A stretch of 64,000 nucleotides of DNA from Beroe forskalii (lineage: Eukaryota; Ctenophora; Nuda; Beroida; Beroidae). The notes under the pieces were generated by a model. It searched no databases. It was not told the DNA's origin and saw only the letters and a list, made by a program, of their open reading frames with translations. A program made the translations under genes and the position numbers. The stretch is from assembly GCA_011033025.1 (NCBI GenBank), contig WFMF01000522.1, positions 52,618-116,617 of the forward strand. Reading direction: 5' to 3'. Below are positions 32,701-56,996 of the stretch, piece by piece; position 1 is the first letter of the stretch, and each line of letters begins with the position of its first letter.

Positions 32701-35341
32701 TCAGGGCCATTCAACAAGGCAGGGATAAGATTGAACAGGTACTGTTTGAATTTCACATAATATTCCATGTAAATTCCATAACATTCCACCTTGTTTGCCT
32801 CTCTTTAGGTACATCAGGCCAGTTCGATGTGAAAAGAGAGTTTACGTTTTCGCAGATGCATAGTTATTTTACTGCGTTCATTTTACGAGTTGGCCAGTTC
32901 TTGACATTTAGATGGGTTATTTTGGTCATATTATGAAGCATTTGCGTTATGAGTTGATATGGAATTGAAAGGACGAAGTCAAATCAATTATCAGTGGACT
33001 GTGGTCGTTGATAATCCGCTATGGGAATAAATTGAAGCTGTTGAGTGGTTTGAATTCGTCATTACATGCCAAATATGACATAATGAATAGCCATTCATTC
33101 AGCGTTTGTCAAATCGCCTGAAGTTGCATTTCAGTTGAGATTGTGACAGTGTCACATTCTTGTAATTCACAGTATTTTACGGAAGACGCATCGATTTTGT
33201 AAATGTTTTTTTCGCGCGATGAGTTCAATTATCGAATTTAACGCGCGCGTTTTATCGCTATATTTCGAGTATTGCGTAGCATCAGTGACCTCATCAAAAT
33301 ATCTTGTGATATGAATGGGGCAGTGAACATTCTGGTATGTTTTCCGTTTTCATAAATGTGGCTGCATGTCCTAAATAAACCCGAGAGGTTCACCATAATT
33401 AAACATAGTGTAGTGTTCATCACAGATAAATCAAAATTTCCTTCACAATCAGACATCATTTTTATGTCACTATTTCGGAATCAAAACTTACACAGCAATT
33501 CTTAGAAAATATAGCATAGGATCTTCACCAGTTACATAACAGTGGTTAAGATAATTTGCATGAAAAACAAGATTGTTATGTGGTTAACAACCGTTATATC
33601 CCCAGGACGATTTAGAGTTCGCTAGAGCTAAGGTGCTAATGGGTGGTGTGGACTCGACTCTGTCAATCAGTGAAGAGGATACGTTTAAAATAGCGGCACA
33701 TGAGGCCGGGCACGCAGTCATGGAAATACTCAGGGTACGAAGTTATCTGTTACCTTAACAACCTGTTATACCATATCTGTTACACTATAGCAACCATATC
33801 TGCTGTACCATGGCAACAATATCTGTTTTCTTAGCAACCATATTCATACGTTTTTACCATAGCAACCATATCTGTTGCCACAGGTGCTATTTCTGTTACC
33901 ATAGTAATTATTTCTCGAACCATAGCATTTAGTAACCAGTTACCACTTCTCTAATCACAGTATTTACCAATTTACTAATTTTAAACTTGATCGTATCATT
34001 GAACGTTTTAACTTGCTCCCTAAACAGTATTTACCAGTTAACTTGTGTCTGCTAACCGTCTACATGTGTCTATTTTAAACTTTACTGCAATAATTTATAC
34101 AATAAAGTTTCTTTAATCACAGTCTTCTCTCCTCTCGTCAGGAAGAGATAACGCAGCGTAAGATCTACCTTGCGACGGTTGAGCCGCGCGGAGTGACGCT
34201 AGGTCACGTGTTTGGGGTTAGTAAAGAAGATGTGCACAGCGTAAGGAATGATCAGCTGCTGGCTCTTATTGACATTGGATTCGGAGGGAGGGCTGCAGAA
34301 GAAATACTATTCGAGGGGGTGAGTTGCCCTCTGTAAACATTGCATTGGTTTTATTTAGAATCCTAATAATATTTAGATCCTAATGATATTTAAATTCCTT
34401 ATAGTGGTTAGAATTTAGTTAGAATGTTATGGTTTAAATTACTATAGCCTTCAATCATGAGTCTCATTTTAACCCTTATTAAGCCAAATATTTTTCTATG
34501 TTGGAGCTTATTAACACTTTCTAAAACCCATCAATCCTTCTCCCTGACTCACAGTAATACCTACCTACCGTCCCACCCTTCACAGGATGAGAGTCAGATC
34601 ACGACGGGCTCGGCTGCAGACTCACGCAACATCGCGCGCTACGCTAAGATCCTGATTGAGCAGAACGGGTACAGTGCCAAGCAGGGCTTTGTACGCTACT
34701 CGGACTCTGACACGAAGAATATGGAGACTAATAACATCATTCAGGAGGAGGTCAAACTGCTATTGGACGTGAGTTGGGATATAAGGGGTACCCCCATGGG
34801 TATTAGGGGTATACGTAATATGGAGACTAATAACATCATTCAGGAGGAAGTCAAGCTGCTATTGGACGTTAGTTGGGGTATATGTGTATATGGGCCGCGC
34901 ACCCTGGGGTATGGGGTATAAGACCCCGGCATATGGTGACGTCACGACTTGCTGGGGTGTAAAGGTACGCACCCAGGGGTTTAATACCCGCGTGCCCTTT
35001 AAGGCTCACTCCTTGGTATCCCGTCATCCCGAAGTACTTTCACCAAAGTGAAAATTGACCATTTCGGGTCGTAGGGAGGGGGAACAACCCTCTCAACTTC
35101 CGGGGGGTATGAAAATCAGTTATATAGGTTTTTAGGGGCTTCAGGGGTTGCCCATTAAGATTTACCTTTACAGGAGAGGTACGCCCAAGTGAAGAAGGAG
35201 ATAAGGAAGCACAAGAAGAACTGGGCTCGGGTAAGGGATGCACTGGTGGAATACAGGACTCTGACGGGTGAGGAATGCAGGACCGTCTTCAACGGGGGCC
35301 GGCCCAAACGACTACCTTCCGAACGACTACCTTCATCCTAG
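29283..35341 (+). CDS. YME1-like i-AAA mitochondrial protease, copy A (12 visible exons)
   Basis: FtsH/YME1-type ATP-dependent zinc metalloprotease, expected in the mitochondrial inner membrane. Exons: 29283-29468, 29820-29900, 30182-30310, 30632-30788, 31218-31295, 31716-31845, 32067-32241, 32568-32738, 33606-33734, 34142-34318, 34586-34768, 35174-35341 (stop); 587 visible residues, presequence exon not found. Domains: Yme1-type N-domain (residues 1-89, [15 protein letters not shown]), one membrane segment (about 102-122), AAA module with Walker A GPPGVGKT (185-192), pore loop MFVG, Walker B IIFIDEID (240-247), REGRFD (297-302), then M41 protease with HEAGH (401-405) and TTGSAAD, whose Asp is the likely third zinc ligand. 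All catalytic residues are present. The exon 6/7 join is off by one base with strict GT-AG sites. Neighbour B is a diverged tandem paralogue. Family assignment is secure; YME1 rather than AFG3L follows from one membrane segment and the N-domain. Confidence 0.93.
30805..30890. repeat. Intronic foldback element
   Basis: GTGCCGGTTACGTCATCTGT-type text pairs with a downstream GTGACGTCACATGACCGGCAC-like arm. It starts within 25 bp of the exon 4 donor of the YME1-like gene. Confidence 0.65.
31395..31540. repeat. Intronic array of GGACAAATGTCCG palindromic words
   Basis: Roughly seven variants of CGGACAAATGTCCG occur in both orientations (for example TCGGACAAATGTCCGTGTCG near 31505-31525). The word resembles, but is not the same as, the TGTCCGTGA array at 21725-22470. 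Confidence 0.7.
33740..33935. repeat. Intronic CATAGCAACCATATCTGTTA repeats
   Basis: About seven degenerate copies of an ~25 bp unit in the intron after the HEAGH exon; related text occurs in introns of copy B (36900-37110). Confidence 0.7.
34718..34873 (+). repeat. Tandem copy of an exon 3' edge with its 5' splice site
   Basis: The last 51 nt of the 34586-34768 exon plus GTGAGTTGG (34718-34777) recur at 34817-34877 with three differences. The copy's donor reads GTTAGT. The second copy could act as an alternative donor but the intervening sequence would be included. Confidence 0.85.
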
Positions 35342-36107
35342 CTGGAGATAGAGTCAAATGTTGGTTTATACAAATTGTGTTTGTCAACACGAACTGAGAT
35401 TCAGAACGACTACCTTCAACTTAACCTGGCACAGAAGTCGGCAACAATCTGAGAGGCAGACTCAATAAAAGGCATACCTTCAGAACGACTTTCTCCGAGA
35501 ATCGGACCCTCAGACAAGAATCTGGAAATTACCTGGAGTCAGAGAACTTCTAGCACTATTTCACGTGACCTGCATGCGCAAATAGGGACATGATTGCTGA
35601 AATGAAAGAGAATTGGACAAAATTGTGACAATTTTTATCAGTTTTTCGCCGTCTTATTAGAAATATAACTTATTATTTGAGTATTTTGAATTTTAACGTT
35701 GGTTTATCCTCTGTAGAGGGAAGAATATTTGATTCATTTTCACTGGTCCAAAGGTCTTCCTCTCATTTAATGACCATTTGTCATAAATGCCTCTATCGTT
35801 TGGCTTGCAAATCGTCCGTGTGGATTCTTTGATAACTCTCATTGCTGTTTCGTAACCCTGTGAAGTAGAACTCCCTAAGTCTTTTCGTAAAATATCGAGC
35901 CTGTAACTCAAAACTTACTCTTATGTGTGTGCATGCATCAATCGATGAAGGGATTGACAAAGACACGCATTTTACAGTGGACGCAATTTACTTTTCATAG
36001 AATTTATGTCGAAATTTACGCTTGCGTACGATTGCCAGTGATACTATGCAAAACTAACCTCACTTTCCTTAAGACTATGCAGAATTAACCTACTTTCCTA
36101 ACTGAGG
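35342..36107. other. Intergenic stretch between the two YME1-like genes
   Basis: The first 60 bp repeat the GAACGACTACCTTC word of the preceding 3' coding end (35328, 35402, 35484), another local duplication of coding-edge sequence. No gene or clear poly(A) arrangement was identified. Confidence 0.5.
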
Positions 36108-36245
36108 ATGGCAGGCGGGGTTACCATGGTGGCTCCCATGGTAACATCCATTTCCGAGTCATTTGTCAGTGTGCTCAGAGGAAATACTTGGCAAAGAGCC
36201 AAGAGACGACAGAGCAGAAAACAAAAACCAGGGAAGACCAATTAA
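36108..36245 (+). CDS. Small ORF of 45 codons upstream of YME1-like copy B (possible uORF or 5' exon)
   Basis: ATG at 36108 opens a 45-residue frame (MAGGVTMVAPMVTSISESF, then an Arg/Lys-rich tail with QRAKRRQSRKQK) closed by TAA. The charge pattern is compatible with a mitochondrial presequence, but no donor was found that would join it in phase to the exon at 36470. It may be a uORF or chance. Confidence 0.25.
   Translation: MAGGVTMVAPMVTSISESFVSVLRGNTWQRAKRRQSRKQKPGKTN
36120..36145. promoter_or_regulatory. Inverted GTTACCATGG pair (X-box-like)
   Basis: GTTACCATGG and its exact inverse CCATGGTAAC are separated by 6 bp. Each half resembles RFX-type X-box half-sites. It lies about 330 bp upstream of the copy B start. 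Similar words occur in local introns, so repeat origin is possible. Confidence 0.35.
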
Positions 36246-36469
36246 ATGAATCATTCTTTGTAACTAACTCCCATTTATCAACCTTACCTGTCTCACACGA
36301 TCAAATTCACTTAGCTATGCGAAAAACGTAAGTACTGTTCATTTATTCTTTTATTGGACGTACCTAACTGTTCAATATGTTTTGTATAGCGCTTATTGCG
36401 CTGTGCGATGTGCTTTAGTGGCGAGTAATCACCACAAACATCTTACGGCGTAAAAGGCGGCGTAACGAA

Positions 36470-39400
36470 ATGGTGATCGGTTCTCCCAACTTACCACTGA
36501 TTGTATCAGGGAAGTCTAAGGACAAAGTCTCTGCTCGTAAGACTGAGTTGGAGCGCCTGATGGCCTCCCTGGACCCAGCCCTCACTTCCCTTCATCCTGA
36601 GTCCCTTCTAGACAACTTCCTTCTTACAGAATACATCAAACATCAGTTCATTCCAGGTAACTTACTTCTTACAGAATACATCAAACACCAGTTCATTCCA
36701 GGTAACTTACAGAATATATCAAACATCAGTTCATTCCAGGTAACTCGCAGAATACATCAAACATCAGTTCATTCCAGGTAACTCGCAGAATACATCAAAC
36801 ATCAGTTCATTCGAGGTGAGTCCATGTTATCTGCTACTAAACAGGGGACGGATCTATGAGAGATCCAGACACGTGGGTTGTCCGAATGATACCAACAGTT
36901 GCCACTTATAGCGACAGTTACTAATAACAACAGTGGCAGTTACCAGCAGTGGCATTTGCCAATTGCGACAATTAACAATGGTGACAATTACCAATAGGCA
37001 ATAACGACAATTACCATCAGCAATAATCACCAATAGCGACAGTTACCATTAGCAACAGTGACTAAAATTAACTGTTACCAATAGCAACAGTTACCAATAG
37101 CAACTATATTCTTTAACCAAAAACACAACATTCCAGATTGCTCCTCCTCACAACACAACCGAAGCGTCCTTCTTCCCCGATCTGTGACGTCACAAAACAG
37201 TCTAATGACGTCACCACTCCACCAGTCTGTCAGAGGACTACACACCGGTCGTCACGGCGGTTAGTAGATACGCAGAGGATTTTAAACGATTTTTAAACGC
37301 CAGTCTTATGCCCCATTGTCCGATTTTCATGAAACTTGATAATATCGAGCACTTTGACTACCTTAATGGAATTGCCAAAAAGTTTATCAAAAGCTCATAT
37401 TTTATCCCAATTTTATGGGCAGTTCAATTGTTGCATCTCCGTTCTATTCGTCTCTACTTCTAGGAAGAACCAACAGACTGACGGAGGAGCTGGAACACAT
37501 CGTAGGTGCTCGAGCTCAGTATGAGGCGGAGCTGAGTGTTGAGAAAGCCCGGGTGGTTGCTACCTCTGAGAGGTTGTTCAGATTCATGCTCCTGTTCAGG
37601 AAAGATTTCGCAAGGACGCTTAAAGTTGGTTTTTTTAAAGTTTTTGTTGAGTTTATTGTAGCACTTGTCGAGTATTTGTAGTGAAGATTCATATAAAGTT
37701 ACTTTTTAGCAAGGTACTGACCTCGAATTACACCAAAAAGATATGAAGAAACAAATAATAGATCTTATCTCTATCACTAATGCTTGCGGGGGCGTGTCAA
37801 ACTTCTACGTGCGCAGCTTTTCCATGCGCGGCTCACTGGCTTTAATGACAGGCATAGAGTCGCGCTTGAAAAAGCCGCGCACACGCCCCTGTTACTCTTT
37901 CTTTCTTCGATTACTAAAATTTCTCTCCGCAGGCGTTGAAAGAAAAGGCAGAAGCGCAACCAGGCAACCCTCACTCCCAAGCCCTCTACCTGGCAGCCCT
38001 CCACAACTCCCTGGGAGTGGGAAGGAAGGGAGAAAAGGACACTATTGCCTCCCTGATCCGTGCGCGCAATTTCGCAGTGAACTCCGTGATTCTGGGGATG
38101 TATTTAGAGGCTGGGGGTCAGAGAGCGAGGCCTGAGGACCTGGCACGTGGGAAGGTAGGAGCTGAAATTATGTTTATTTAAAAATACTTTTAGCTTGAAA
38201 ATGTCATAAGTTAATTGACGAAAAGTCGCTTCAATGCAGCAATGTCGTGGTTATTTGTTCTCAAGTTCAAAAAATGATGTATATATTTGACCATGTTATC
38301 GTCGTATAATACAGCTGTGTAGCTCCAAATCATTTTCCTTTTACTCGCGTTGAGAATTTCACGTAATATGCTATAACGCAGTCTTGGAGCTAGTATTATT
38401 AATCATTAATTAGCTGATTGTCCTTCAGTTTTGGAGCGTGTTTCGAGAGACGGGTGATCTGTTTAGGAGGCTGCTTGGCTGGGGGTTAGCAGTAGCACTG
38501 ACTTACATGCTCTAACGATCACCTCGTGTAAAAAAGCTAAAGTGGAGGGGGCGAAGGGGGAGGGGCATCCAGCGATTCTGGTTCAGGACAAAAGACTTCT
38601 CTAGGTGAGTTTTTTTGGTGTAGGGGAATTATCTGCAGATCCACAAAGTGGAGGTGCCAAAAGCTCCCAACAGAAAAGGACGTTCTGTCGTATCACTTAT
38701 TTGGTGGAAGTGTTGAATAACATCATAAAATGGCAAATAACACGGTGTAAGAGTGAGTAACATGGTAAAAGTGTGAATAATACCGAAAAGGGTGGAATAA
38801 TACGACAAAAAACTCAAAATAACACGTTTATATTCAACCGAAATAACCCCACCACATGGTGAATAATATGCTATCCTTCAGTTTTGGAGCTAATTACTGT
38901 ATTAGTAATTCATTAGCTGATTATCCTTCAGTTTTGAAGCTAGTTATTTATTAGCTGATAGTATTTAATATGATGATTAGTAATTGAGAGATGGAGGCTG
39001 ACAAGGTAATTCATTAGTATCCTTATCCTTCCTTTTTTGTCGCGTGTTTCAGAGACAAATTTCTGTTTCGAGGCTGTTATGGGGGTTAGCAGTAGCACTG
39101 ACTTACATGCTCTACACATCGGTGAAAGGCTACAGTGGAGGGGGCGAAGGGGGAGGGGGCATCCAGCGACTACTGGTGGAGGACAAAAAGCTGGTGTGGA
39201 GGAAGAGGGGGAGGGGGCATCCAGCGACTACTGGTGGAGGACAAAAGCTTCGAGGTGAGTGGGGGGGGCATCCAACCACTACTGGTGGAGGACAAAAGCT
39301 TCGAGGTGAGTGGGGGGTGGGGGCATCCAGCGACTACTGGTGGAGGACAAAAGGATCGAGGTTAGTTCTAAGGACATAAGTACCTGCTGTTAAATTTCAA

Positions 39401-42400
39401 TTGCATTAAGCATTTCTAGAGCTCTTCACTCTCCCATAGGTTTTGACGCCGGATGTTACGTTTAAAGACGTGGCTGGGAACCAGCATGTTGTAGAGGAGA
39501 TGAAGGAACTCGTCAACTTTCTAACGGAGCCAGACAAATACGAATCGTATTACGTTGCCGGCTCTGCAATGGTTACCAATATCCATGATAACACACTGTT
39601 GCCATGGTATCGCGGTAACATAATGATTCCCATGTGTTACCTTTTTGTCGCAATGCTTTTTATCACAAAGTTTTTATCACGAGTTATACCAATAATGAAT
39701 CCCATGAATACAATAAAAGTCCCTTTTTTCAGATATGGGTTGCAACATTCCTAAGGGTTACCTCTTCTGCGGCCCCCCTGGGGTCGGTAAGACGCTCATG
39801 GCTAAAGCCTTGGCTGGGGAGGCCGGTGTGCCCTTCTACTACGCCTCAGGTATATAGCGCACTGGCTGCTTCTTGTGGCTTTTATGGTTTGTGTAATAGC
39901 ACGACAGTTTACTGTCAAATCACGTGCTGATTGTCTGTGGTAAGGCTGTTAGGGGTGCAAAAAAACCTTTTCTCTTGTCAAGAAATCTTTTACGTACAGA
40001 TACATCACATTGGTAAAGAAACGCGCATTGCAGATGACAGGGGAATGATAGCACTTTTACACACTCAGAAACCCCAAATCTCTTTTCCCTGTATTCCACT
40101 AAATTCCCAGCTAAATTCCCACACCACTCCCAGCTCAACTCTCTCTACACCGTCCCAGGGTCTGCATTCGAGGAAGTGTTTGTTGGGGTGGGAGCAGGAC
40201 GCGTCAGGAAACTCTTCGAGGATGCCCAAGAGAACGCTCCCTCTATCATATTCATTGACGAGATCGATTCTATAGGTATGTTAAGTTGGATCTTGCCCCT
40301 ATTCCGCAAGTTTGTCCGGTTTTGGCAAGGCGGGGAAGCGCTTGTTACCATTTTAAATGCACGGGCCACGGTCTTTTTCTAATCCACTCGGCTGCTGACT
40401 TGTTACAAAGCCACTCCTAATCCACTCGGCTGCTGACTCAAATAATTCGCCCAGTTTGAGCAGCTCTAGTATTTCATGAATCATCCCATCAGGACAGAAG
40501 AGAGGTCCGGCAGATGGCCGGTATACCAACAGAAGCACTCTCAACCAGATACTCTCCTGCATGGACGGTAAAATCTCTAGTTACCTGACTATTTATCTAA
40601 CAACCTAACTATTTACCTTATTTGAATGTACTCTAGTATTGGTCATTCATTAATCATTTCTCTTTAATGTTTATTAAGGGATTTTGAAACTTAGATCAAA
40701 GGAGGCTTGAAGCAGGTCCGGTTGACTGAAGACCAATGCGGTATCCTTTTCATAATCCTTTTCATACCAAGTGTATTATTCTTAACTTTCAGGTTATCAT
40801 GCATGGACGGTAATGATCTCTAGAACTTACCTGACTATTCACCTTATTTACCTAACTAGGGAGGGCCTTTTGACCTAATATATATATCCTCTCATAGCTT
40901 TCACTCAAGTTGATTATTGTTGCAGGTTTTGAGACAAATAGCGGCGTTATTGTGATAGCTGCCACAAACGACCCTGCCATCCTGGATGATGCCCTGATGA
41001 GGGAGGGACGATTTGACACAAAGATATCCATCAGAGCTCCTTCACTGAAGGTAAAACGTATTGAGGTGGTTTAATCGTTTTCCATTGATTGATCGCGGAT
41101 CGAACATGGACGATCGATTGAAAAACGTGCTTTCGCACCTGCGGTTTTGCGCGCACTCAATAGAAATAGGAATTATATTTTGATTAACACGTATTTTGAA
41201 GAACACGTCTTTATCAAATCAACCTTTTTTTCAGGGTCGTTTAGAGATTATATTTATACAAGTTCACACGGCTTTTGATGGCTTTTTCAGGGTCCCTGGA
41301 GATGTTGCAAGTTCACACTGCTAACAAAGTTGTATTCAGGGTCGTTTGGAGATGTTGCAAGTTCACACTGCTAACAAGTTGCTTGTATTCAGGGTCGTTT
41401 GGAGATGTTGCAAGTTCACACTGCTAACAAGTTGCTTGTATTCAGGGTCGTTTAGAGATGTTACAAGTTCACACTGCTAACAAGTTGCTTGCGGAGGGCG
41501 TGGATTTGGAGTACTTAGCTACAGCCTGTGTAGGAATGACAGGAGCTCAGTTAGCTAATCTAGCGAATACGGCTGCTCTGAGGACGGTGCTGGAGGGGAG
41601 GAAGGAAATCACGCAGGTATGATGAATTATAGAAATGAACTATGACGGGGGAGGGGGGGTTATTTCCCAAAAACCAAGGCCGATTCTTGGGCTGACCTGC
41701 CCCCACCCTTCAGGAAGTGACCCCAATATAGTGTGTACTTTTCTAAGAGGCTGCTCACATTTTTGGTAATCTTTGCTTTGTGCAATTTACACTGCAAATT
41801 TCGAGAAATGAACACATGTTGGATGATCTGTAAATATTCTGCATTAGATGTCAATAATCTCAAGGAAATCACGCAGGATGATTTCGAGTACGCGCGTGCG
41901 CGGCTCCTGATCGGCCACATTAACGAAGACTTGGAAGTGTCAGCATCGGAGCTGGAGAACACCGCCGCGCACGAGGCGGGCCACGCGCTGCTGACAGTTC
42001 TGAGGGAGGACATCACCAAACGACCTGTCTACATCACCACTATTCTGCCTCGCGGTGAGTAAACGACCTGTCTACATCACCACTATACTGCCGCGAGGTG
42101 AGTAAACGACCTGTCTACATCACCACTATACTACCTCGAGGTGAATAAATCGGTCACAACTGATAAGATTATGTGATCGACTTTCGGTTTCACCTCGGAT
42201 TGACAACAGCCTTCGGTTTTCAGCCTTCGGTCTCCTCTGCCTCGAAGCTCGATAAAAACTATTTTGACTCAGAATCTGATTCCACACCCCAATTGTATGT
42301 TTTAATCAATTTATCTGATGACTTATGAGGATATCTATAAGCGGTTTAATTGAAAAGAGATTTAGATTTAACTCCCTTCAGGTGGAACGCTTGGTCACGT

Positions 42401-45305: not shown

Positions 45306-45309
45306 CGCG

Positions 45310-45440: not shown

Positions 45441-45701
45441 GGCCGACACAACAAAAAATTACGCGGGGCGGAGGGTAGGGTAAAATACTGCTGCAAAGAA
45501 CTGTTTATTTTCTGTCGATTGATTTCCTTTTTTCAAATTTTCACACTTCACAGATTCAAAGCTTCAATTTGATAATAGTATAGCGCGCAATTCGTGCGTG
45601 CCGCGCATGGATTGAATGTTGCATCTACTAGTCTTGCGGAGGTCCATAACAACGGTGTAGACAGAAGCTGCTATTGTAAATCTCGTAGTAAAATCTGCAA
45701 A

Positions 45702-46535
45702 ATGATCCAATTGATAGCTGTTGCTCTTACCACTGCGTTTTCTATTGCTTTTGCTGTAATTGTGACAGCTTTTAAACGATCTTCAGTTGCTGATCAATCC
45801 CAAAGTAGTGATGAACCACCGGTGGGAGCGCAGCGGAAGTCAACGTTTCGGAGAGTCAGTGAAGCGGCCAAGCGTTTTTCTGTGGTTTCGGATGGCGATG
45901 GTTCCAGGAAATCATTAGCAAAGAGAGTTTCCGATGGATTTATTGGATTGATCCACAAAGCTTACAAAGCTAAAGGACATGAACCTGACTACAGTGCTGT
46001 TGATTTCTTCAGCAACCCGCTAAAGCAGCACATCTCCGAGGCTGTGTCAGCAATGCGTCATCCGAGCTCCACGATCGAGCTCATTTCTGCGATCAGAACA
46101 CTGGGACACATTTCCATTACTGGTGGAAATGAGACATCTGGATACATCGGAAAATTCATCATTCCTGACTTAGCTGCAAAGCTGAAGAACCCACTCGAAG
46201 ACTTCGAGGTTAAATTAGCTGGAGTTGAAGCTGTGTCAGAAATGTGTGCCTACTGCATGAAAGACAACCAAGACCTCTGCAAAGAATATGGTATTTTGAC
46301 GTTTCTGATCGAAGGTCTCCGAAACCATTCAACCAACAAAGAGCTTCTCCGTCGCCAGTGGTGTGCCCATGCTCTATATTACTGCATTGCTAACAACCCT
46401 GAAGCTAACAACTATGTGAGACAGTACAATGTGACCTTAGATCTTGAGAACTTGTCCATTTACATGCACCCTGACGAATCAATGTGGGAATTCAATGATG
46501 CGGAAATGTTGCTGGAAATGCTCAGACGCTACTGA
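45702..46535 (+). CDS. Intronless armadillo-like helical protein (ARMH2-like)
   Basis: 277 residues from ATG 45702, the first in-frame ATG; the frame is open to 45594 but without ATG. The N-terminus is a membrane segment (MIQLIAVALTTAFSIAFAVI) followed by a basic, Ser-rich linker with KRFSVVS and RKSLAKRVS, possible kinase sites. From about residue 100 the sequence is helical and repeat-like (AIRTLGHISITGG, VKLAGVEAVSEMCAYC, WCAHALYYCIANNPEANNYV), matching the pattern I know from armadillo-like helical domain-containing protein 2; identity to that family is from memory and moderate. No enzyme motifs. Its single exon is unusual beside 12-19-exon neighbours, so a retrocopy origin is possible. 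It ends 275 bp before the EFHC2 start, on the same strand. Confidence 0.8.
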   Translation: MIQLIAVALTTAFSIAFAVIVTAFKRSSVADQSQSSDEPPVGAQRKSTFRRVSEAAKRFSVVSDGDGSRKSLAKRVSDGFIGLIHKAYKAKGHEPDYSAVDFFSNPLKQHISEAVSAMRHPSSTIELISAIRTLGHISITGGNETSGYIGKFIIPDLAAKLKNPLEDFEVKLAGVEAVSEMCAYCMKDNQDLCKEYGILTFLIEGLRNHSTNKELLRRQWCAHALYYCIANNPEANNYVRQYNVTLDLENLSIYMHPDESMWEFNDAEMLLEMLRRY

Positions 46536-46810
46536 AGTCACTTATCACTGTTTTCATTATTTCTCATTCATTGTCAACATTCAATCACTATCATAGCTAT
46601 GTTTCACTTAGTTTATCACTCGAAAAGTCTGATTAAGTACAAATCAAGCTCACTCTTCACTTCTATTGAATTGCTTTAAAATCCATTTATCATTTTCGAT
46701 AACATATGTGGCATCAATTTGCTTAAATTCATTGGATTCGCCTAATAATAAAAAGTTTGATATTTTGATGTTTTTTGTAGAGTTTACTCTAATCTTTCCT
46801 TTTTCAAAGG

Positions 46811-49800
46811 ATGGCGCTTCCTTTTCTACCAGGAAATGCTACCAACAGCAATGTGAGTTCTCGATCTTGAATTATTGCTCCAATGCTGATTATGTTGATT
46901 GGATTTTACTAAAACAATACCACTTCTCATTTTCACAATTATTTTCACGTTCGTAATAACATGATGAAGCACCGAAAATAAGATTTTATATATTTTCTAT
47001 TTCAGTTGGGAGTTGACAGGTTCCACAAGCCTCACGCTTTTGACATGAGAAATGGCGTGCCCGTCTTTGTGGGTGAAGAAAAAGCTGGAATTGGAGGTAG
47101 AAATGAGTTTGTTTGACTTTTAATTTTAACATTTAACTTTATCTTCTATACATTGGAATCGAAAAGTCGAATTCAAAAGTCGAATTGAATAGTCATCATG
47201 GTACTTAGACCTTAAAGATTTATCTGAGACTAAAAGTTTTCCCATTTTTTTCATAAACTATTTCTAAAATCACGTCAGGTAAAGCTCTCCCTGGACAGAA
47301 GATCCCTGTAAAGAGTAAAACTTTAGGCAGGTTCAGGTTAAGAAACGTACCGATCCTACCTAAACTTCAGCACTGTACGATGCTATTTCTAATCCTACAT
47401 TTCTTCAGGTAAGGCTCTCCCTGGACAGAAGATCCCTGTAAAGAGTAAGATGGTTCCTAACGGTGCAGGACAACCTGCCCCCTCCTGGGTGGCTTACGAC
47501 AGACAGGTCCTGAGGTTCAGTGCTTTCTTCCAGGAGGCTGTTCATGAGAAGAGGGAGGAGAAGTACAGGATTAGAAAATGAGTGGGATTCTAACCCCGAA
47601 CTATTCTAACATACATTCTATCCCCACTCTATCTCATACATAGAAATACAGGATTAGAAAGAGAGTGGTATTCTAACCCCTAACTATTCTAACATACATT
47701 CTAACCCCTATACATACAAGTACAGGATTAGAAAGTGAGTGGGATTCTAACCCCGAACTGTTCTAACATACATTCTAACCGCATTATTCTAACATACATT
47801 CTAACCCCACTCTATTCCATACATAGAAATACAGGATCAGAAAGTGAGTGGGGTCACTTATTCTAAATCAACACTATTCTAACCCTCATTCTAAATTCAC
47901 TCCATTATTTACCAACTCCATTATAAACCCACTCCATTCTAACCCCAATCTAGCCTAAGCGCGCTCTATTCTAACCCCAATCTATCTTTACCCCACTCTA
48001 ATCTAACCCTCTAACCCCACTCTATTCTAACCCTTTTCTCCCCTCCAGATGCACCATTCTCTACTACCTGGAAGATGACAGTATCCAAGTCAACGAGGCG
48101 TGTCAAGAAAACAGCGGCATCCCCCAAGGAACCCTCATTCGACGACACAGGTCATTTTCATTTCCACATTCCAGATTTGTTTTTGTGACTGCACAGTGCA
48201 CACCTGTATTGTAAATGTACCTTATCTTTTTTTTCCTTTTTTTGTGCAATCCTTTTAATCATTTATATTTAACACAAAATACTGGCAAACCAGGCACTAC
48301 CCTTGAGTTGAGCCACCATGCCATCCAGAAGATATTATTTGACTAAACGCCGCGCACGAGAAATAGGCGGGTAGGATGACGTCATTATCATAGCTCAATG
48401 TAGTGAGTTGATGACGTTGAATCGCCTATTTTTCGTGCGCAGCGTTTAGTTTGAGAGCTCGAAGAGACTTATCGTTATTATCATGATTGATTTCTGTTCC
48501 TTTCATTCTTTTTATGTCCAGGATCCAGAAGCCCGCCCCCCATGACGACACCTTCTACGATCTGGATGCTTTCAACGTCGGTAACAACGTCACACTCTAC
48601 AGTCGCAGTTTCACCATAACGGTGCGTGTAATCATCAATTTGACACTTAAAATGTTTTCCATCTATTTGAGTGATCTTTCAATGAATTTGCGCCAATTCT
48701 GCACCTGCACCACGATGAATGATTTCATTTGAGTGGGAGTAATGCGTCAACGGCACATTAGATTTCGCGTACAGGGGTAGCGGTGAAGGGCCAGGCCCCA
48801 GGGGTATTATAGTGGTAAGATGTCGCTAGAGGTAGAGATGAGATATCGCCATGTGGGGGGTAGACGCCACAATGTCACATATTACCGATCACGGGTTTGA
48901 AACTCCCTTCCTCTCAGGACTGCGACGCTTTCACCCGGAACTACCTCACCAAAGCGGGCACCAAAGTCCCGGATCCCGCAGCTCTGGAACCCGCGGACCC
49001 GTACTTCGAACACCGGAAGAAGGAAGCCGCCACGATGCAGCCCCACCGACCTTACGAGAAGTGCGACACCTCAAGCAGGTGGGTGGGAGTGACGGTTTTG
49101 TCCACCCGAGAAAGATGGCAATAGAGGAGGTTTATTGCAATCTGTCGAGTAATCAGATTGATAATGGACCTTATGACTCGATGAGTTATTCATAAATATC
49201 ATTATATTTCGTCCTTCCTAAATTTTTAAATCTCTTTCTCATTAACCAACCCGCACTTTGAAAATTCCTAACTCCCTTCCCTCAGTTCCTGGAGAACGAC
49301 CGTAAAGTCCTCCGTTTCTACTGCATCTGGGACAACTCCGCAGAGATGTTCGGGGATGTGAGGAGCTGGTGCTCCACTACTTCCTGGCAGACGATACGAT
49401 GGAGATCAGAGAGGTTATCCGAGCTAACTCAGGGAGGGATGCCGCTCCCAAGTTCCTGAGGAGGAGCAAAGTTCCTAAGGTGGGTGAACAAGGGTGGAGA
49501 AAAGTTCCTAAGGTGGGTGAAAAAGGGTGGAACAAAGTTCATAAGGTGGGTAAACAAGGGTGGAACAAAGCCCATAAGGTGGGTCAAAAAGGGTGGATCA
49601 AAGTTCCTAAGGTGGGTAAACAAGGGTGGAAAAAAGTTCATAAGGTGGGTGAACACGGGTGGAGAAAAGTTCCTAAAGTAGGTGAAAAAGGGGGAACAAA
49701 GTTCCTTAGGTGGGTGAACAAGGGGGAACAAGGTTCCTAAGTCGGATGAACAGGGTTGGAGCAAAGTTCCTAAGGTGTCCTGGAGTGGGGCGAGGGATTT

Positions 49801-52800
49801 GGGGTAGAGCAAGGTTGTAATGGTGGGTCTGGGGTTGTTAGGTTCTTAAGGTGAGCAAAAGGTGGTGGAAATATAAAAAGGTGGTCAAGGGTTAGGAGTT
49901 AAGGAAGGTCAGTGGTGAAAGAACTCCATGAAATTATGTTGGTTATGACTAGGGGTATCCTTAAGGTTCTCAGGATGGGACAATGAGGACGGATCAGGGT
50001 CTCTGAATTCTCCCTAAATACCATCCCCTGCTTATTAAGGTCAAAGTCTCTCTCTCTTTAAAAACCATCCCTCTGTTCAGGAAGTGGGAGCCCTCCACAA
50101 GCCAGGGGAGATCACAGAACGCACAGTTCTGAACGTGTTCGGACCCATGGGGCACGGGGGCAGGTACATTCTGGACTCTCTGAAAACCGGGGCTGTTGAG
50201 AAACAGTTCTACACTGATGCTGATCTCACTATTGGAGCCAAGATCAATGTTTGGGGCAGGTCAGATCGGTCTTGACCAAACACTCTTCTTAACGTTTTTT
50301 TAAATATTCGCATTGGCTCTAAAAATTTCAGAATGATTCCAGTTTTCGATGAATTGCCTTAGACCTAATCAACTCTCAGTCTCGAATATTTGCAAATTAT
50401 TTGTGGTCTCATGAACCACTATAATTTCTCAATTCTGATATCTTCATCTCCGTCAGATCAATGTTTGGGGCAGAGAAGTCACTATTTGTGATATGGACGA
50501 GTTCACGGAACACCACTTCAATTCCAAGTTCGCCGTTGGTATGTCACTTTTACTTAATCGACTGAAATCAATACCATTACCTATTTATATTGTTTATCGA
50601 TTATCTACACAGATAGAAATTCTGGTGATCAAAATTTCGGTGATTCGAAAATAAGGATTTTTCGCAGAAAATCCCAAATTTTGTACCACTTATATAAGTT
50701 CAGTAAGGTCTAACCCTGCCTCTTCTCACTCCCACCACCCCTTCACAGAGAAACCGCACCCGATCCACTACAAGGCAGGCGAAGTGGCGGCCATTGACCG
50801 GGAGATTCCACCCTACAACGGCTGGGGATCCGAGGAGGACTCACGGGCAAACTGTCTGAAGCTCATCGCTCAGGCTCCCAAACGAGACTTCAACAAGTTC
50901 ATGCAGAAGGACAGGTAAGAGAATAAAAGGGTCACTCAGGGTTGATATTAGGTTTATTTCTGGTGCCACTCAATCCTCCACCAATCACTGCCCCTCGACC
51001 CCCTGGCTAGGGGAGTAGGGGACTCCTGTAACTTTCATACTTGCATTCACGTAGATTCAAGAAACCCATTTCTTTAAAACCCTTTCTCTACCCTCCGCCC
51101 CTAACCCCTTCCCCAGACACTTAAGAAACCCTGTCCCTAACCCCTCTTTCCCCAGGCTATGTTTCTTCATAACCCCTTTTCTAACCCCCTTCCCCCAGGC
51201 TTTGTCTCTTCATAACCCCTTTTCTAACCCCCCTGTCCTCAGGCTATGTCTCTTAATAGCATAACACCGTCCCTAACCCCTCTTTTCCCAGGCTATGTTT
51301 CTTCATAACCCCTTTTCTAAGTTCTAACCCCCTTTTCCCCAGGCTATGTCTCTTCATAACCCCTTTTCTAACCCCCCACGTCCCCCAGACAAGGTCTAGA
51401 CAGCCACGTTCTGCGGTACATGGCCCGTCTCGACACCAACCGTCCCATCGACATGGACAGGACCTTCATCGTCTCCTTCTTCCTTTCCGACGATACGATC
51501 AGGTAAATGATTTAAATTTCTGGCACATCTTCTTTTTTTAATAATGTCCCCAGAGGCAAAACCGTGCTAACTCAACCCCAGAGGCTCCCTGAATATGACA
51601 ATAATAATATATACCTAACTTTTGCATTTTTATGGGAATCACAATCAATTCATAGGATAAATATCAATATTACAAAAAGCTTGCCCACCATTCAAAAACT
51701 TTAGCTCTGATATTTAGAATCATTGAAATCTTTCACTGCATTGGCTTGGACAGTAATACCAAAAACACACGTAGGTACAAAGCAATGTAAGCAATGTGAT
51801 GTATTTAAACTATCACCCTATCAGCGTCTTCGAGCCCGAGAAGAGGAACTCCGGTATTGTTCATGGGAAGTTCATTGAAAGGAGCAAACTGGCTAAACCA
51901 TCCGGAGGCTATTATCAGGCAGAGGTATGTGTGGAATTCATTGTATGACTGATTCTAACCAGGCAGAGGTATGTGTGCAATTCACTGCCTGACTTATTCT
52001 GTCTGACTGATTGTATGACTGTTTGTATTTGTATTTCTGAGGATTGAGAAATCTTTCCTTCCTATTCATGTTCTATTTTCTGTCCTTTCTATTTTTTATT
52101 CTACTTTGAACTTCCTGTTCTATTTCTGTCCTATTTCCTCCGCTGTCCCTCTTTAACTGACCCTACCCTCGCAGGATTTGTACGTGGGCGCTGTAGTGAC
52201 CTTCAGGTCTCACAACTTCATTATCACCGATGCAGACGAGTACGTGATGAGCTACGCTGAGAAGCACCAGGTGAGAACTTCCTTGGGATATTCCTTGAAC
52301 TTCCTTGGAATATTCCTTAAATTTCCTTGTAATGTTGTGTCAAAACAAAACCTTTTCCTTGTAATTGGTCTAGAATCTTCCTTACGTACTACGTAGATGT
52401 CGCGAGATCTGAGAATGCCTTATGAAATTTCCAAATGACCGCCATTTGTACGCGTGTGACACTGATTCAACAGTACATCTACGTATGTACATGGCATCAT
52501 GGGACTTGGAAATTTCAGAATGATTCTCGTATCTCGATGATGTCGCCACTGCATTATGCTGGATTTACAATGGAATAAACCTGTGGGCTGTCGTGTGAAA
52601 AATAATTAATTAATTTTTCATCACAATAAATCAGCCATAACGTTCACGCAATGCCACGTCAAATCACAATTTTCACGGACCACCCAATTGTGAAAAGACA
52701 GTGATTTATAAGGATCTATAAGGAAATAAATTGTTGACTGATTATTTTTCAATCCAACTGATGTCTGATCCATCACTCAACCTTATGTTTAATCAACCTC

Positions 52801-55800
52801 TCCACCCGATGTCTGACCCATCACTCCACCTGATGTCCGATCCATCACTCCACCTGATGCCTGATCCATCACTCCACCTGATGTCTGATCCATCACTCCA
52901 CCTGATGTCTGATCCATCACTCCACCTGATGTCTGATCCATCACTCCACCTGATGTCTGATCCATCACTCCACCTGATGTCTGATCCATCACTCCACCTG
53001 ATGTCTGATCCATCACTCCACCTGATGTCGGATCCATCACTCCACCTGATGTCTGATCCATCACTCCACTTGATGTCTGATCCATCACTCCACTTGATGT
53101 CTGATCCATCACTCCACCTGATGTCGGATCCATCACTCCACCTGATGTCTGATCCATCACTCCACTTGATGTCTGATCCATCACTCCACTTGATGTCTGA
53201 TCCATCACTCCACCTGATGTCGGATCCATAACTCCACCTGATGTCTGATCCATCACTCCACTTGATGTCTGATCCATCACTCCACCTGATGTCGGATCCA
53301 TAACTCCACCTGATGTCTGATCCATCACTCCACTTGATGTCTGATCCATCACTCCACCTGATGTCTGATCCATCACTTCACCTGATGTCTGATCCATCAC
53401 TCCACCTGATGTCTGATCCATCACTCCAACTGATGTCTGATCCATCACTCTACCTGATGTTTGATCCATCACTCCACCTGATGTCTGATCCATCACTCCA
53501 CCTGATGTCTGATCCATCACTCCACCTGATGTCTGATCCATTACTCCACCTGATGTCTGATCAACCAATCCACCTGATGTCTGATCCATCACTCCACCTG
53601 ATGTCTGATCCATCACCTGATGATCCTGTCCTCTTTTCAGTGATTACCGAGATTTCCACCATCAGAGGACTGTTCCTGGTCTCCAGCTAAGGAAACTAAC
53701 CGAGATTCTCCCCATTCTTTGCTGTAGAGAATAAAACTCAAACTGTCAAAAAGCCCTCTCTCTGCGGAAAATATGTATTTATTGAGATTCGCAGAAAACT
53801 TGAAACAATAAATGATGCACTTTTGCATATTGATTCCATTTAAACTTATTGAACTGGGATGAAAATTTTATAGATTAATTTAAGTTCCTGTGTTACATCA
53901 GATCATTGATTATCTAAACAATGTTCCAAGCAATAATATCTACAAAGAGTTTTTCCTTCAAAACTTTTTACTCCTAGGTTGATCATTATTTTACGATACT
54001 GATCCCTGATTTTATGTACGTTATAAATTATATACTTGTATGATATGATGTACATAAGATAGTTTTAATAAATAACGCCGTTTTTGCTTCTCGAATCTGC
54101 ACGCAAATGACATGCAGAGATTGCCTGAGAAAAGTTATCAACAAATCCGAAATGGAGCTAAAATATGTGACAAAATCGAGATCAAAGAAATTTGCAGGTT
54201 CCATCATAGCTGATCACTCCGCTACAGAAGTGATCATTTATTGAATTTCTAGAATGTGATGATTTTAAATTATTTGTCCTCTCGTATACTTCCCTAAACC
54301 CCTCTTAGAAGCCCTTCTTTGTCAAGTCCATTACAATCATCCAACCCCCTTTAGAACCCCTACACCCACATTAATCCCCTGAGAACCCTTATTTACCCCT
54401 GGCTCTCCTCTTTACACCCCCCATGCTATCCTTCAACCCCCGTGCGATCTTTCAACCCCCGTGCGATCTTTCAACCCCCCTGTGCGATCTCTCAACCCCT
54501 CCATTCATACATTTGAAGTTCCCAGAAGCAGACCTGAACCGCATTATGGGCGTGGTCTGTGAGCTGATCCCTGAGAACAGTCTGACTGCAGTGCAGGAAT
54601 CCGAGGCTATGGCTTACGATAACTTCATGTGAGTTAGGGACAAATTTCCACAAATTGTCAGAAATAGTAAATCCCTTTTTTTCATCTCTTTTACTGCTGA
54701 TTTGATATGAATTACTGCTGATTTGATATGAATTACAGGGGCATTGATCCAAGTTAATGTCATCATTACTTGCAGGTTTCTGAGTGGAATAATTTCTTCT
54801 GTATTTATGACATTGATCGAGGGAGATATTTTCCCTGTCTCATTAATAAGTTCTGTAACTAAGTACGAGACAGTGCTCGACAAGTTTCCGAGGAAACGAG
54901 GAGCGAAACAAAGTACCAAGTAAAACGATCGGGTTCCAACTCAAAGTTTCATGTACTTACGTACAATCTCATTATACATCTTATCCTCAGAGAGTTCCTG
55001 GAGTCGCACTGCCACTTGAAGTTGTCTCAGCATGCCATGTTGGTAGTGGCACGGCATTATGCCAACCCTGCGCCCTACAAGATAACGTGGGACTTCGTGC
55101 TCAAACTCAGCCGAGAAAAGGTACGATTTAGTGTCATTTAGTGTGTCAGTGATGGAATTGATTAACCTTTTGGAGAACTCAATGGTATCTAATTTATTCT
55201 TCTGATCTAGAATGGTCCATCTTGATTATTTTCATAAACTAATTTGTATTGGTATGTATTTCTTGATATTTGTATTCCATTCCACGGATTAGAATCATTT
55301 GACAATGTTCAATACCTCCTCAATTCCTCATCTTGATGGCATTTTGCCAGCATGATGGCACATGTGACTGCCTCCATTAACCCAATCCATTCCTCAGTTG
55401 CGCAGTGCTAACTTTGACCGCTATGATGAGCTGGTCCAGGCCCTTTCCCGCGCGGAAACAACAAATGAAGTCGAATTAGACCCTGGCGATGTGTATCGAG
55501 CTTGCATCGCGGTGGGGTTACCTTTGACAAACGACCTACTGACTGCTCTAGTTCAGAAGTAAGTCTTGGAAGGTTGGTGTCAGATCTGCCAAATTTGAGG
55601 AAATTCCACATTTTCCTCCTTAAAACAATATGATTCCACCGCGAAATGATCATGCTTCTTGGATAGTGCCGTGGCTTGAAATTAGAACTCAATCTTCATT
55701 TGTTTATTCGGCAGATCGCGAATTTGACGGAGTCTTCCCTAAAATTCACCAATTTTCAGGGTCCCGAAGACCAACGGAAGAGTGGATTACAAGAACTTTG

Positions 55801-56996
55801 TCAACGAACTTCAATCTCGATCTGCGATAGGTAACATCCGCTCCACACATTTTAAACTAACAAGCAGTATCGCGTTATGTATTTCTTGACCATTGAATGT
55901 GTCGAGAGGCGATTTTCTCGTAATAAGAATGATTTAATGGAAATTGGCTGAAGGAAACTGACCGAACTTCAATCTCGATCTGCGGTAGGTAACATCCGCT
56001 TCATCTTAAACTTTAACAAGCAGTGCCGTGTTATGATTTCCTGAAATTTGAATGTGTCGAGAGGCGATTGCTTAACCTGTCCAAAACCTTGCCTCATTGA
56101 TTATTGCACAGTAATCGTAATGATTTGCTGAATGAAGCTGACACAATTTATTTTGCTGATGAACATAAATTCTGAAGATATATGTGCTGAAATTTACCTC
56201 GAATAATTCAAAACATGCGTCCATAGTTTAAACTGCGTCTGTGCGCACAATCGGTCACAAATTCATTGATTTCTGAAACGTAAGCGTAACGCGCAATGCC
56301 ATTTTACTGACGCGCACACAACTTTTCACTCCTTTCGGAGTCTGATATGCGCGCGTTGCCATGGAAACTCAATATTTTCCTATTTACGTATCCCAATTAC
56401 AATCAAGCTTCAACTCTAAATCCTACTGATAGTATTTACCTAGCATACAGTCAGTAATGGTACTCATGAATTGGTACTCAGAATTTTAGATCAATTGAAT
56501 GCGGTCGTGGTCTGAAACTTGAGAGATCGTACGGGTGTTTGATATCATTGAAGATTGGAAAATATTGATTACAGAATACACATTTAGTAGATTGAAACTA
56601 TACTAGAACTATGCTGTTGAATATAGTTCAAAGGCAGAGAACTAAAATAGTTGTTTATTTCAGAGGAAGACGTAAAGTTCACCCCTGACTCAAAGCTCAC
56701 CCAACCAGACGTGGTAAGGATTTGTAATTTAGTACATTGGCACCAATTTGAAATATGAAACGTTTGAACATCCTTGCAATTCAAGTTTGCTGATAGAAAC
56801 TAGTTGTTCCTTAACCTAATATGCGTTTTCCCAGAATCGCAGTGGCTGGTTTGGCCTCCAGAACCTAGAACACAAACACCGAATCACGGATGTAAACACG
56901 AAGTCTTTCTGTACCGATTTGGTGGCGCTGAAGCGAGCCCGATCCCAAACCCCGGTGGAGGCCTGCATTTCACGCTCAAATTCCCCTACGAAGTGA
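46811..56996 (+). CDS. EFHC2: EFHC2-like DM10-domain ciliary protein (19 exons, two lesions)
   Basis: Exons: 46811-46852, 47006-47096, 47409-47577, 48049-48150, 48522-48621, 48918-49082, 49286-49479, 50081-50259, 50474-50538, 50749-50914, 51389-51502, 51825-51924, 52175-52270, 54519-54628, 54991-55120, 55398-55558, 55760-55830, 56664-56713, 56835-56996. Adding one lost base gives 755 residues, close to human EFHC2 (about 750). It opens MALPFLPGN as EFHC proteins do, then three DM10 domains (about 78-185, 224-365, 424-528: [29 protein letters not shown] starts; [28 protein letters not shown] cores) and a C-terminal EF-hand-like region, longer than in EFHC1. Known members are inner proteins of ciliary doublet microtubules. 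Lesions: the exon 3 donor is AT instead of GT (47578) and exon 7 lacks one base near 49350-49365. Many introns carry copies of exon edges. The family is certain; whether this allele is functional is open. Confidence 0.93.
47278..47452 (+). repeat. Duplicate of EFHC2 exon 3 acceptor and 5' edge
   Basis: GTAAAGCTCTCCCTGGACAG then AAGATCCCTGTAAAGAGTAA occurs at 47279 (after cacgtcag) and at 47409 (after tcttcag). Only the second leads into the full exon. Confidence 0.9.
47560..47850 (+). repeat. Four copies of EFHC2 exon 3 donor region
   Basis: Unit: TACAGGATTAGAAAGTGAGT then GGGATTCTAACCCC. Copy 1, at the true exon end, reads AGAAAATGAGT (GT changed to AT); copy 2 reads AGAAAGAGAGT (GT changed to GA); copies 3 (about 47722) and 4 (about 47829) keep GTGAGT. 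Confidence 0.9.
48342..48450. mobile_element. MITE in EFHC2 intron (family copy 1 of 2)
   Basis: ACTAAACGCCGCGCACGAG at the left and its near-inverse ending GCAGCGTTTAGT at the right; GGATGACGTCATTATCATAG in the middle. The second copy is at 60647-60754 in an ATG3 intron. Confidence 0.85.
49463..49770 (+). repeat. About ten copies of EFHC2 exon 7 donor region
   Basis: Unit about 30 bp: AAAGTTCCTAAGGTGGGTGA then ACAAGGGTGG. The exon ends at the first AAG|GTGGGT. The frame stays open through the array (KVPKVG / KFLRWVN readings on the plus strand), so read-through could add a repeat peptide. Confidence 0.92.
50243..50473 (+). repeat. EFHC2 intron 8 bounded by 17-bp direct repeats
   Basis: ATCAATGTTTGGGGCAG is the last 17 nt of exon 8 (50243-50259) and the last 17 nt of the intron (50457-50473). 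Only use of the second copy as the acceptor keeps the phase (GR|EVTICD). Confidence 0.93.
51090..51388. repeat. Intronic repeat of CCCCAGGCTATGTCTCTTCA units
   Basis: Five to six units of about 45 bp, each with a pyrimidine tract and CAG, run up to the real acceptor (tcccccag) at 51388. Potential decoy acceptors. Confidence 0.8.
51912..51992 (+). repeat. Two copies of EFHC2 exon 12 donor region
   Basis: CAGGCAGAGGTATGTGTGGA then ATTCATTG (51917-51944) is repeated at about 51959-51986. Confidence 0.85.
52396..52548. repeat. Imperfect foldback repeat
   Basis: GAAATTTCCAA (about 52425) and TTGGAAATTTC (about 52507) face each other, with GAGAATG / CATTCTC-like flanks. The same GAATCATTCT..GAAATTTCCGA text recurs at 60050-60240. 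Confidence 0.5.
52745..53632. repeat. 24-bp minisatellite, about 36 copies, in EFHC2 intron 13
   Basis: Unit TGATCCATCACTCCACCTGA then TGTC. The unit length is a multiple of 3, so frames stay open on both strands (SDPSLHLM repeats on plus, GVMDQTSG repeats on minus) without meaning that they are translated. Variants (CTTGATG, GTCGGATCC) are arranged in higher-order groups at about 53020-53340. Confidence 0.95.
54280..54510. repeat. Pyrimidine-rich CTTCAACCCCCGTGCGATCT repeats before an EFHC2 acceptor
   Basis: Three to four copies of TCTTTCAACCCCCGTGCGA at 54427-54490 in a C-rich tract leading to exon 14. Confidence 0.8.
55806..56040 (+). repeat. Copy of EFHC2 exon 17 end and donor
   Basis: CGAACTTCAATCTCGATCTG then CGATAGGTAACATCCGCT (55805-55842) and the following AACAAGCAGT text recur at about 55965-56025 with a few changes. 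Confidence 0.88.
56355..56368. promoter_or_regulatory. X-box-like RFX motif GTTGCCATGGAAAC
   Basis: The 14 bp match the RFX X-box consensus (GTTRCC, 2-bp spacer, RGYAAC-like) except for one position. It is intronic in EFHC2, a ciliary gene, but also close to local GCGCGC repeats. Function unproven. Confidence 0.35.

Follow-up and report, generated by a model that had tools for sequence, protein, structure and literature searches.

Exon edges and the adjoining splice signals occur in more than one copy at 14 of the 41 introns (34%) modelled in three neighbouring genes of the window (the whole stretch of 64,000 nucleotides analysed here): nine times on the donor side, twice on the acceptor side and three times as a copy at the end of the intron. 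These repeats at exon edges are real and beyond chance as repeats, and the arrays match the 'mirages' described in lancelet genes, an already known kind of repeat, as judged from the sequence of one haplotype. We consider it probable that they are mirage minisatellites, i.e. local tandem duplications which happened to include an exon edge and were tolerated via splicing, and that the three intron-end copies belong to a separate type of event that may shift a splice site.

Exon models of genes A, B and D, all on the forward strand, were built on reading frame, homology and splice signals and comprise 10, 13 and 18 introns, respectively; introns are named by their flanking exons. Gene A (29820-35341; 11 modelled exons, 5' extension possible) is an FtsH-like AAA/M41 protease with an unbroken 524-aa reading frame over the 11 exons and a PDB match to FtsH (E=3.4e-97). 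Its FtsH-like paralogue, gene B (36470-43395; 14 modelled exons), contains AAA and Peptidase_M41 domains and is identical to the protein of gene A at 258 of 514 positions; at the b5/b6 junction the frame is not kept. Gene D (46811-56992; 19 modelled exons) is EFHC2-like and carries one frame change in d6 and one in d7. The top PDB match of its piece d8-d17 was 8snb (EFHC2, presumably the sea urchin entry; E=3.9e-114) with 385 bits, compared to 284-314 bits for the four other top EFHC2 chains, which we take to be mammalian or other vertebrate; 8snb scores 383-414 bits against the same four chains. This comparison is in keeping with an animal origin of gene D. Affected introns are concentrated in genes B and D (13 of 31 introns versus one of 10 in gene A). 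Ten other long ORFs in the window matched no Pfam family except for one zinc knuckle, none of the ORFs tried revealed a further intron-bearing gene, and the window contains neither an Rfam family at gathering threshold nor a tRNA. A pattern search of viral contigs returned six matches with no relative among them.

All fourteen places listed in a preliminary description of this DNA are present, but its estimate that about half of the introns are affected was too high. Donor-side copies in gene A are restricted to intron a10-a11 (34718-34882; two copies, offset 99). In gene B they are found at b1-b2 (36614-36821; five copies, x4.9 over 36623-36817), b4-b5 (39148-39366; four copies or x3.8-4.0, unit ~51) and b11-b12 (42018-42149; three copies or x3.1, unit 43), and at b8-b9 (40555-40858), where 40555-40611 recurs at 40797-40858 as a non-adjacent copy 242 nt apart (50/62 identities, E=2e-11). 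The donors of gene D that are copied are those of d3-d4 (47559-47850; four donor-edge copies, of which the first, in-frame one has AT as donor dinucleotide, the second GA and the third and fourth GT), d7-d8 (49459-49777; ~10 copies of a 33-bp unit, x9.6 over 49463-49777), d12-d13 (51916-52000; two copies, unit 44) and d17-d18 (55805-56069; two copies, offset 155-158). On the acceptor side, intron b9-b10 (41230-41491) carries ~5 copies, with a unit of 53, of the exon start together with a preceding ttcag, the first of them degenerate (x4.0 over 41286-41491), and at d2-d3 (47275-47448) the segment 47275-47318 is copied non-adjacently 130 nt downstream. The copy numbers given previously for the arrays at b1, b4, b9-b10, b11, d3 and d7 agree with these values, and the notion of a short tandem array at each place holds for most of them, the exceptions being the two non-adjacent copies and the three intron-end pairs, which form a different class. 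Units or offsets at the edges range from 33 to 158 bp besides the donor pair 242 nt apart, and three of 11 (99, 51 and 33) are multiples of three. When the spans of the three genes were scanned blindly along diagonals, 135 repeat segments emerged versus none in a first-order Markov simulation (one per gene span), and seven donor and two acceptor clusters were detected; the b4 array was added from TRF and the b8 pair from a targeted comparison.

Repeats spanning exon-intron boundaries are thus not without a name, as had been assumed, since they were termed mirages in lancelets. The available portions of two reports describe them in the lancelet globin genes Gb6/Gb9 (PMC3087553) and in lancelet PGBD5 (PMC3902484), and cite the same structure for lancelet Adh3 and troponin C (PMC3087553, PMC3902484). 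According to the same portions, published units measure 10-72 and 150-160 bp and lie at both 5' and 3' edges, AG/GT is present in many of the copies though not in every one, and splicing was undisturbed where RT-PCR was done (PMC3087553, PMC3902484). In the window, repeats likewise lie over the boundaries at either end of the intron, with units that are in part similar and with duplicated AG/GT (GT is kept in 23 of 25 extra donor copies); units of 33, 38-45, 43, 44, 51, 53, 74 and 155-158 lie within or close to the published range, whereas 99 (a10), 130 (d3 acceptor) and 242 (b8) fall outside. Unlike in the lancelet papers, which report mirages gene by gene, the arrays affect 11 of 41 introns (14, a third, with the intron-end copies) in three adjacent genes, including a pair of paralogues with shared intron positions, and are mostly on the donor side. 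The stretch therefore makes a preference for donor edges, the sparing of acceptors and intron movement by exon-edge copies testable. Searches of an open-licence library brought up mirages in lancelets only; if the present genome is not that of a lancelet, they are more widespread than the lancelet papers say.

Whether edges are enriched depends on how the repeats are counted. Per base, repeats cover 17-23% of the intron interior (12.5-19% without the largest array), 3-5% of the exon interior, 17% of donors and 2-5% of acceptors; relative to a rotation null, donors (7/41) are not above expectation (P 0.29-0.66, six settings) and acceptors (1-2/41) are below it (P 0.004-0.025). Diagonal scans at four thresholds gave 5-7/41 donors, 1-2/41 acceptors and 14-22% of the intron interior. 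They replaced a coarser self-BLAST (37 segments, 7/41 donors, 2/41 acceptors) whose set differs in that b1 and d12 were missed, b4 and b8 were found and the acceptor of b3-b4 appeared instead of that of d2-d3. Counted per array by the founding units obtained with TRF, a donor is straddled by 6 of 26 (1.2 expected; P 0.0009) and an acceptor by one (also 1.2 expected), and of the nine arrays whose unit measures 25 bp or more, seven lie across an edge (1.8 expected); as the window was selected for the pattern, all P values on edge enrichment are post hoc. The enrichment suggested by the preliminary description is thus seen for donors by array count, but neither for donors per base, a result that speaks against it, nor for acceptors in either test.

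Local duplications abound in the gene spans, where they are mostly intronic and rare inside exons. A duplication within an exon would break the protein and be purged, while one that includes the donor would be tolerated, because splicing would take the exon-side copy and the remainder would turn into intron. The larger number of donor than acceptor arrays is expected if choosing the 5'-most donor renders the extra copies harmless; a search for the first AG past the branch point would instead select a decoy acceptor and be harmful. Unequal exchange or conversion may then expand and homogenise the array, whose constrained member would be the coding copy, which would explain why differences in the exon part are mostly silent outside the d7 array: 13 of 21 distinct ones are synonymous (5.1 expected), and 10 of 12 without d7 (3.0 expected), whereas d7 alone (3 of 9) shows no silent bias. 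For a10 and b9-b10, intron positions matched in the paralogue (displaced by four codons for a10) indicate that the arrays would have arisen in existing introns. Tolerance alone does not account for the roughly five-fold donor excess, that is, the preference of long-unit arrays for donor edges over the intron interior, and a donor-side mutational bias may have to be added. A hotspot in which duplication starts preferentially at donors, e.g. through transcription- or splicing-linked breaks, and produces enrichment independently of selection is a possible explanation that we hold less probable than tolerated mirages. The array count favours it, as do the units at b1, b11 and the b9-b10 acceptor, which reach at most ~7 nt into the intron and thus little beyond the splice signal; however, other units extend far into the intron (~48 nt in a10, ~35 nt in d12, >100 nt in d17), coverage of donors per base equals that of the intron interior, acceptors show no excess, and the basis is one window chosen post hoc. 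The earlier idea of duplications starting at splice sites is accordingly backed for donors by the array test, but not by the per-base test and not for acceptors.

That spare splice sites are kept by selection to buffer or diversify splicing, as also proposed in the preliminary description, appears highly improbable. Retention of GT and the strong scores of several extra donors would be in line with such a role, and the 33-bp d7 array would add 11 codons in frame per copy for six copies. Yet the loss of GT is at the level predicted from drift in the exon part next to it (2 losses versus 2.9 expected among 21 scorable copies), and the in-frame extension is open from only 8 of 25 extra donors, six of them in d7, the other 17 lacking GT, shifting the frame or bringing a stop; in d3, whose exon-side donor lacks GT, use of the spare donors would introduce a stop. 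The spare donors therefore look like passengers without a selected role. By a score whose training set consisted of the very 41 donors that it ranks, an outer copy exceeds the exon-side donor in four of nine arrays (b1, b4, b11, d3), ties with it in three (d7, d12, d17) and is weaker in two (a10, b8), so that correct splicing is not assured. We also regard it as improbable that the arrays are remnants of new introns, born when an exon segment with AGGT was duplicated in tandem (the Rogers model), a mechanism already known from the available portions of three reports (PMC4974935, PMC2891723, PMC3629103). The tandem-duplication cases of potato RdRp, fission yeast and Drosophila resemble the present one in that duplication supplies extra splice sites, and neither b8-b9 nor b11-b12, whose donors are copied, is matched by an intron of gene A. 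Those cases differ in that at least two arrays here lie in paralogue-matched introns, the duplication decorating existing introns: b9-b10 equals a6-a7 in position and phase, and a10-a11 has a counterpart four codons off in b13-b14. Absence from the paralogue, as expected of a newly gained intron, thus applies to b8-b9 and b11-b12 but not to b9-b10 and a10-a11. Finally, the two frame changes in gene D, the out-of-frame b5/b6 junction and the AT donor in d3 could point to an assembly or base-calling artefact or to decaying genes, and base errors or gene decay may indeed blur the picture; as an explanation of the arrays this is very unlikely given the many independent sites with differing unit lengths and copy-specific variants, and gene A is open through 11 exons and still carries an array.

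The three intron-end pairs bring no second donor. In b10-b11 (41602-41876) the final 15 nt of exon b10 (41602-41616) recur at the very end of the modelled intron (41862-41876), in b13-b14 (42881-43239) 12 nt are shared between 42881-42892 and 43228-43239, and in d8-d9 (50241-50473) 19 nt between 50241-50259 and 50455-50473. Each copy lies directly against the exon on the opposite side of the intron and ends exactly at both modelled splice junctions, which is the case in 3 of 41 introns. A chance origin was ruled out by mispaired controls, in which the maximal identity among 1640 mispaired exon/intron ends was 8 nt, and exact matches of at least 11 nt occurred in 23 of 3128 mispaired exon-intron pairs. 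According to the available portion of one report (PMC11782384), introns are generally found with short direct repeats around them; those observed here differ in being exact, 12-19 nt long and placed precisely at both modelled junctions. Insertion of the introns could have left them as duplications made at the target site or at a double-strand break, which we consider rather unlikely. Intron b10-b11 occupies exactly the position of a7-a8, in the same phase, and b13-b14 resembles a10-a11 after a displacement and retains the acceptor that belongs to the a10-a11 position. Owing to these counterparts in gene A, neither looks newly inserted, and for b10-b11 the shared position speaks against a transposon-type insertion with target-site duplication.

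As a concrete candidate, b13-b14 is a possible footprint of intron sliding. In the alignment of A and B, a10 is at column 643 and b13 at column 647, both in phase 0, so that the b13 donor lies 12 nt (4 codons) from the a10 intron position, exactly one repeat length; a distance that is a multiple of three and an equal phase are what intron sliding demands of near intron pairs. In contrast to such pairs, the displacement here is as long as the stretch of exon sequence that is directly repeated on the far side of the intron (12 nt). The 12-19 nt of exon edge lie exactly against the neighbouring exon, as they do only in mRNA, and for this reason we propose, as a long shot, that the intron-end copies stem from DNA repair near the splice junction, copied from spliced RNA or cDNA over the exon-exon junction. 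If so, the b13-b14 donor would have moved by exactly the copied length, one step of intron sliding could happen at once, and, together with the donor arrays, splice junctions in this genome would be favoured places for local copying, in part from RNA templates. In both b13-b14 and d8-d9, the AG just 5' of the copy is a far better acceptor than the modelled one; in b13-b14, the scores are 12.3 for the acceptor of the old position and 0.2 for the modelled acceptor, which lies 12 nt further downstream, and use of the former would add four codons in frame.

Four genes, all on the plus strand, occupy 29.8-57.0 kb: gene A (29820-35341, 11 exons) and its paralogue gene B (36470-43395, 14 exons), both encoding FtsH-like AAA/M41 proteases, between B and D an armadillo-like and apparently single-exon gene, whose open frame (45579-46535) matches PF17822 weakly, and the EFHC2-like gene D (46811-56992, 19 exons). 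Exon models of A, B and D (exons a1-a11, b1-b14 and d1-d19; introns are named by the upstream exon or the exon pair) were built from reading frame, homology and splice signals and contain 41 introns with a median length of 321 nt. The frame of A is unbroken across every modelled exon. In B one junction fails (b5/b6, 39546-39733), all GT-AG options found by eye losing frame or homology, and D has an AT donor dinucleotide at exon d3 and one frame change each in d6 and d7 (48918-49479), which may be due to sequencing error or decay. A and B are identical at 258 of 514 aligned positions and have four introns in common in position and phase (a4=b6, a6=b9, a7=b10, a9=b12).

Repeats were confirmed at all 14 places of the preliminary description, which amount to 14 of the 41 introns rather than the "about half" stated there. 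At nine introns (a10, b1, b4, b8, b11, d3, d7, d12 and d17) the exon edge is repeated together with its donor, at two (b9-b10, d2-d3) with its acceptor; the other three (b10-b11, b13-b14, d8-d9) carry intron-end copies, i.e. the last nucleotides of the upstream exon recur at the end of the modelled intron without a second donor. A blind scan of the three gene spans yielded 135 local direct repeat segments, which group into 28 clusters (two being a single block), and none in a first-order Markov simulation of the spans; seven clusters lay over donors and two over acceptors, by an ungapped criterion that b4 and b8 fail. Contrary to the initial view that no named phenomenon covers such copies, passages of two papers on lancelet genes describe tandem duplications across exon-intron boundaries of Adh3, globin, troponin C and PGBD5 as "mirages" (PMC3087553, PMC3902484), with units of 10-72 bp in Adh3 and 150-160 bp in globin (PMC3087553), variable copy number and splicing undisturbed where tested (PMC3087553, PMC3902484). 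Established neighbouring phenomena are intron sliding and the gain of introns through tandem duplication (PMC4974935, PMC3443670, PMC3629103, PMC2891723). The tandem copies at this locus likewise span exon-intron boundaries, and we file them as putative mirages.

Base and array counts are both fair, yet they disagree on an excess at edges. Under six parameter sets, repeats covered 7 of 41 donors and 1-2 of 41 acceptors, 17-23% of intron interiors (12.5-19% without the 870-bp array 52749-53616) and 3-5% of exon interiors; local direct repeats covered only 0.3-3% of the intergenic gaps (35342-36469 and 43396-46810), compared with these intron values, and coverage in the remaining parts of the window was 7-25%. 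When edges were rotated within each gene, the 41 donors showed no excess by bases (P(null>=obs) 0.29-0.66) and the 41 acceptors fell below the null (P(null<=obs) 0.004-0.025). For the array count, founding units were placed at random over introns and edges: 6 of the 26 merged TRF arrays touching introns straddled a donor (1.2 expected, P 0.0009), 1 of 26 straddled an acceptor (1.2 expected, no excess), and 7 of the 9 arrays with units of at least 25 bp straddled an edge (1.8 expected, P 0.0002), all P values being only descriptive because the window was chosen for this pattern. The TRF list lacks the two-copy duplications at a10, b8, d17 and d2-d3. Of the two, the array count is nearer the edge excess claimed initially, since long arrays inflate the base count.

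GT was kept in 23 of the 25 extra donor copies, the two losses comparing with 2.9 expected from the exon-part mismatch rate (32/484; 21 copies with gap-free exon-part alignment). An open in-frame extension is possible with 8 of the 25 (one at a10, one at b1 and six in the 33-bp-unit array of d7); the other 17 bring a frame shift or a stop or have no GT. On a donor score trained on these same 41 donors, b1, b4, b11 and d3 each have an outer copy that scores higher than the exon-side donor, at d7, d12 and d17 the two tie, and at a10 and b8 the outer copy scores lower; the exon-side copy of d3 has no GT, and its outer copies with GT would introduce a stop. A buffering or diversifying role of spare sites, as proposed initially, is therefore unsupported, the d7 array being the best remaining candidate for length variation.

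Over the exon part, 13 of 21 distinct differences between extra copies and exon copy were synonymous (5.1 expected), with 3 of 9 in d7 alone and 10 of 12 without d7 (3.0 expected), as were 8 of 14 minority changes among copies (3.3 expected); seven of the nine donor arrays were counted, b4 (indels) and b8 (gapped) being left out. Since drift as plain intron would confine a synonymous bias to exon-copy changes, the simplest reading of these few changes is that the coding copy is the source of the other copies, exchanges sequence with them or converts them. We favour a mechanism in which local tandem duplication would generate arrays and those inside exons would be purged, duplications across donors would be tolerated because splicing trims the spare copies, acceptor duplications would be disfavoured because they place decoy AGs ahead of the true AG (acceptor choice follows a first-AG rule), and exchange with the coding copy would hold copies similar. 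The b9-b10 and a10-a11 introns, both with arrays, have matching introns in the other paralogue, which shows that these arrays arose in introns already present. The favoured mechanism does not account for the scarcity of long-unit arrays inside introns or for their frequency at donors.

In the intron-end copies, 15 nt (b10-b11), 12 nt (b13-b14) and 19 nt (d8-d9) of the upstream exon's end recur exactly at the end of the modelled intron. In the other introns of the 41 such identity reaches no more than 6 nt, and 1640 mispairings give at most 8. Once mirage arrays, the copy lying upstream of exon b4 and two isolated matches of 11 nt are set aside, they are the only exact intron/flanking-exon matches of at least 11 nt, and each abuts the opposite exon exactly. 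Templating by spliced RNA would explain this abutment, as would insertion-type duplication, against which stands that b10-b11 is not a new intron: its position is unchanged relative to A, with the copy on the acceptor side. The acceptors of all three introns were placed by homology, and an alternative AG directly precedes the copy, 12 (b10-b11), 12 (b13-b14) and 17 nt (d8-d9) upstream. Against a 41-acceptor average of 8.7, upstream and modelled sites score 12.3 and 0.2 in b13-b14, 7.9 and 0.9 in d8-d9 and a similar 2.9 and 2.7 in b10-b11; with the upstream AG, b10-b11 and b13-b14 would gain four in-frame codons, and the frame would shift in d8-d9. In the A-B alignment the a10 and b13 introns lie exactly four codons apart, the length of the 12-nt repeat. 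Because a well-scoring AG persists at the A position, only the donor of b13-b14 has surely moved, by one repeat length.

Exon b4 (39040-39200) has a degenerate copy ~600 nt upstream (38430-38620, 82% over 160 columns), in which a stop in frame and a separate ag|gtgagt were seen by eye. Upstream of exon d11, an array of 43-bp units (51137-51377) with a cccag-type motif resembles decoy acceptors but is no clear copy of the exon start, and the array at 52749-53616 is a 24-bp minisatellite of 36 copies in part of the 2.2-kb intron d13-d14. Elsewhere in the window, a LINE-like element (10338-14858, minus strand) has fragmented open frames for reverse transcriptase, endonuclease and zinc knuckle, and a second reverse-transcriptase fragment lies at 17277-18316 (plus strand). 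A satellite family with units of ~172-175 or 334-345 bp forms three blocks, of which 3831-4347 and 5383-6263 are mutually inverted (best piece 94% identical) and 62893-64000 matches the others in parts at 85-88%. Degenerate TTAGGG-like hexamer tracts lie at 25979-26069 and 44982-45056.
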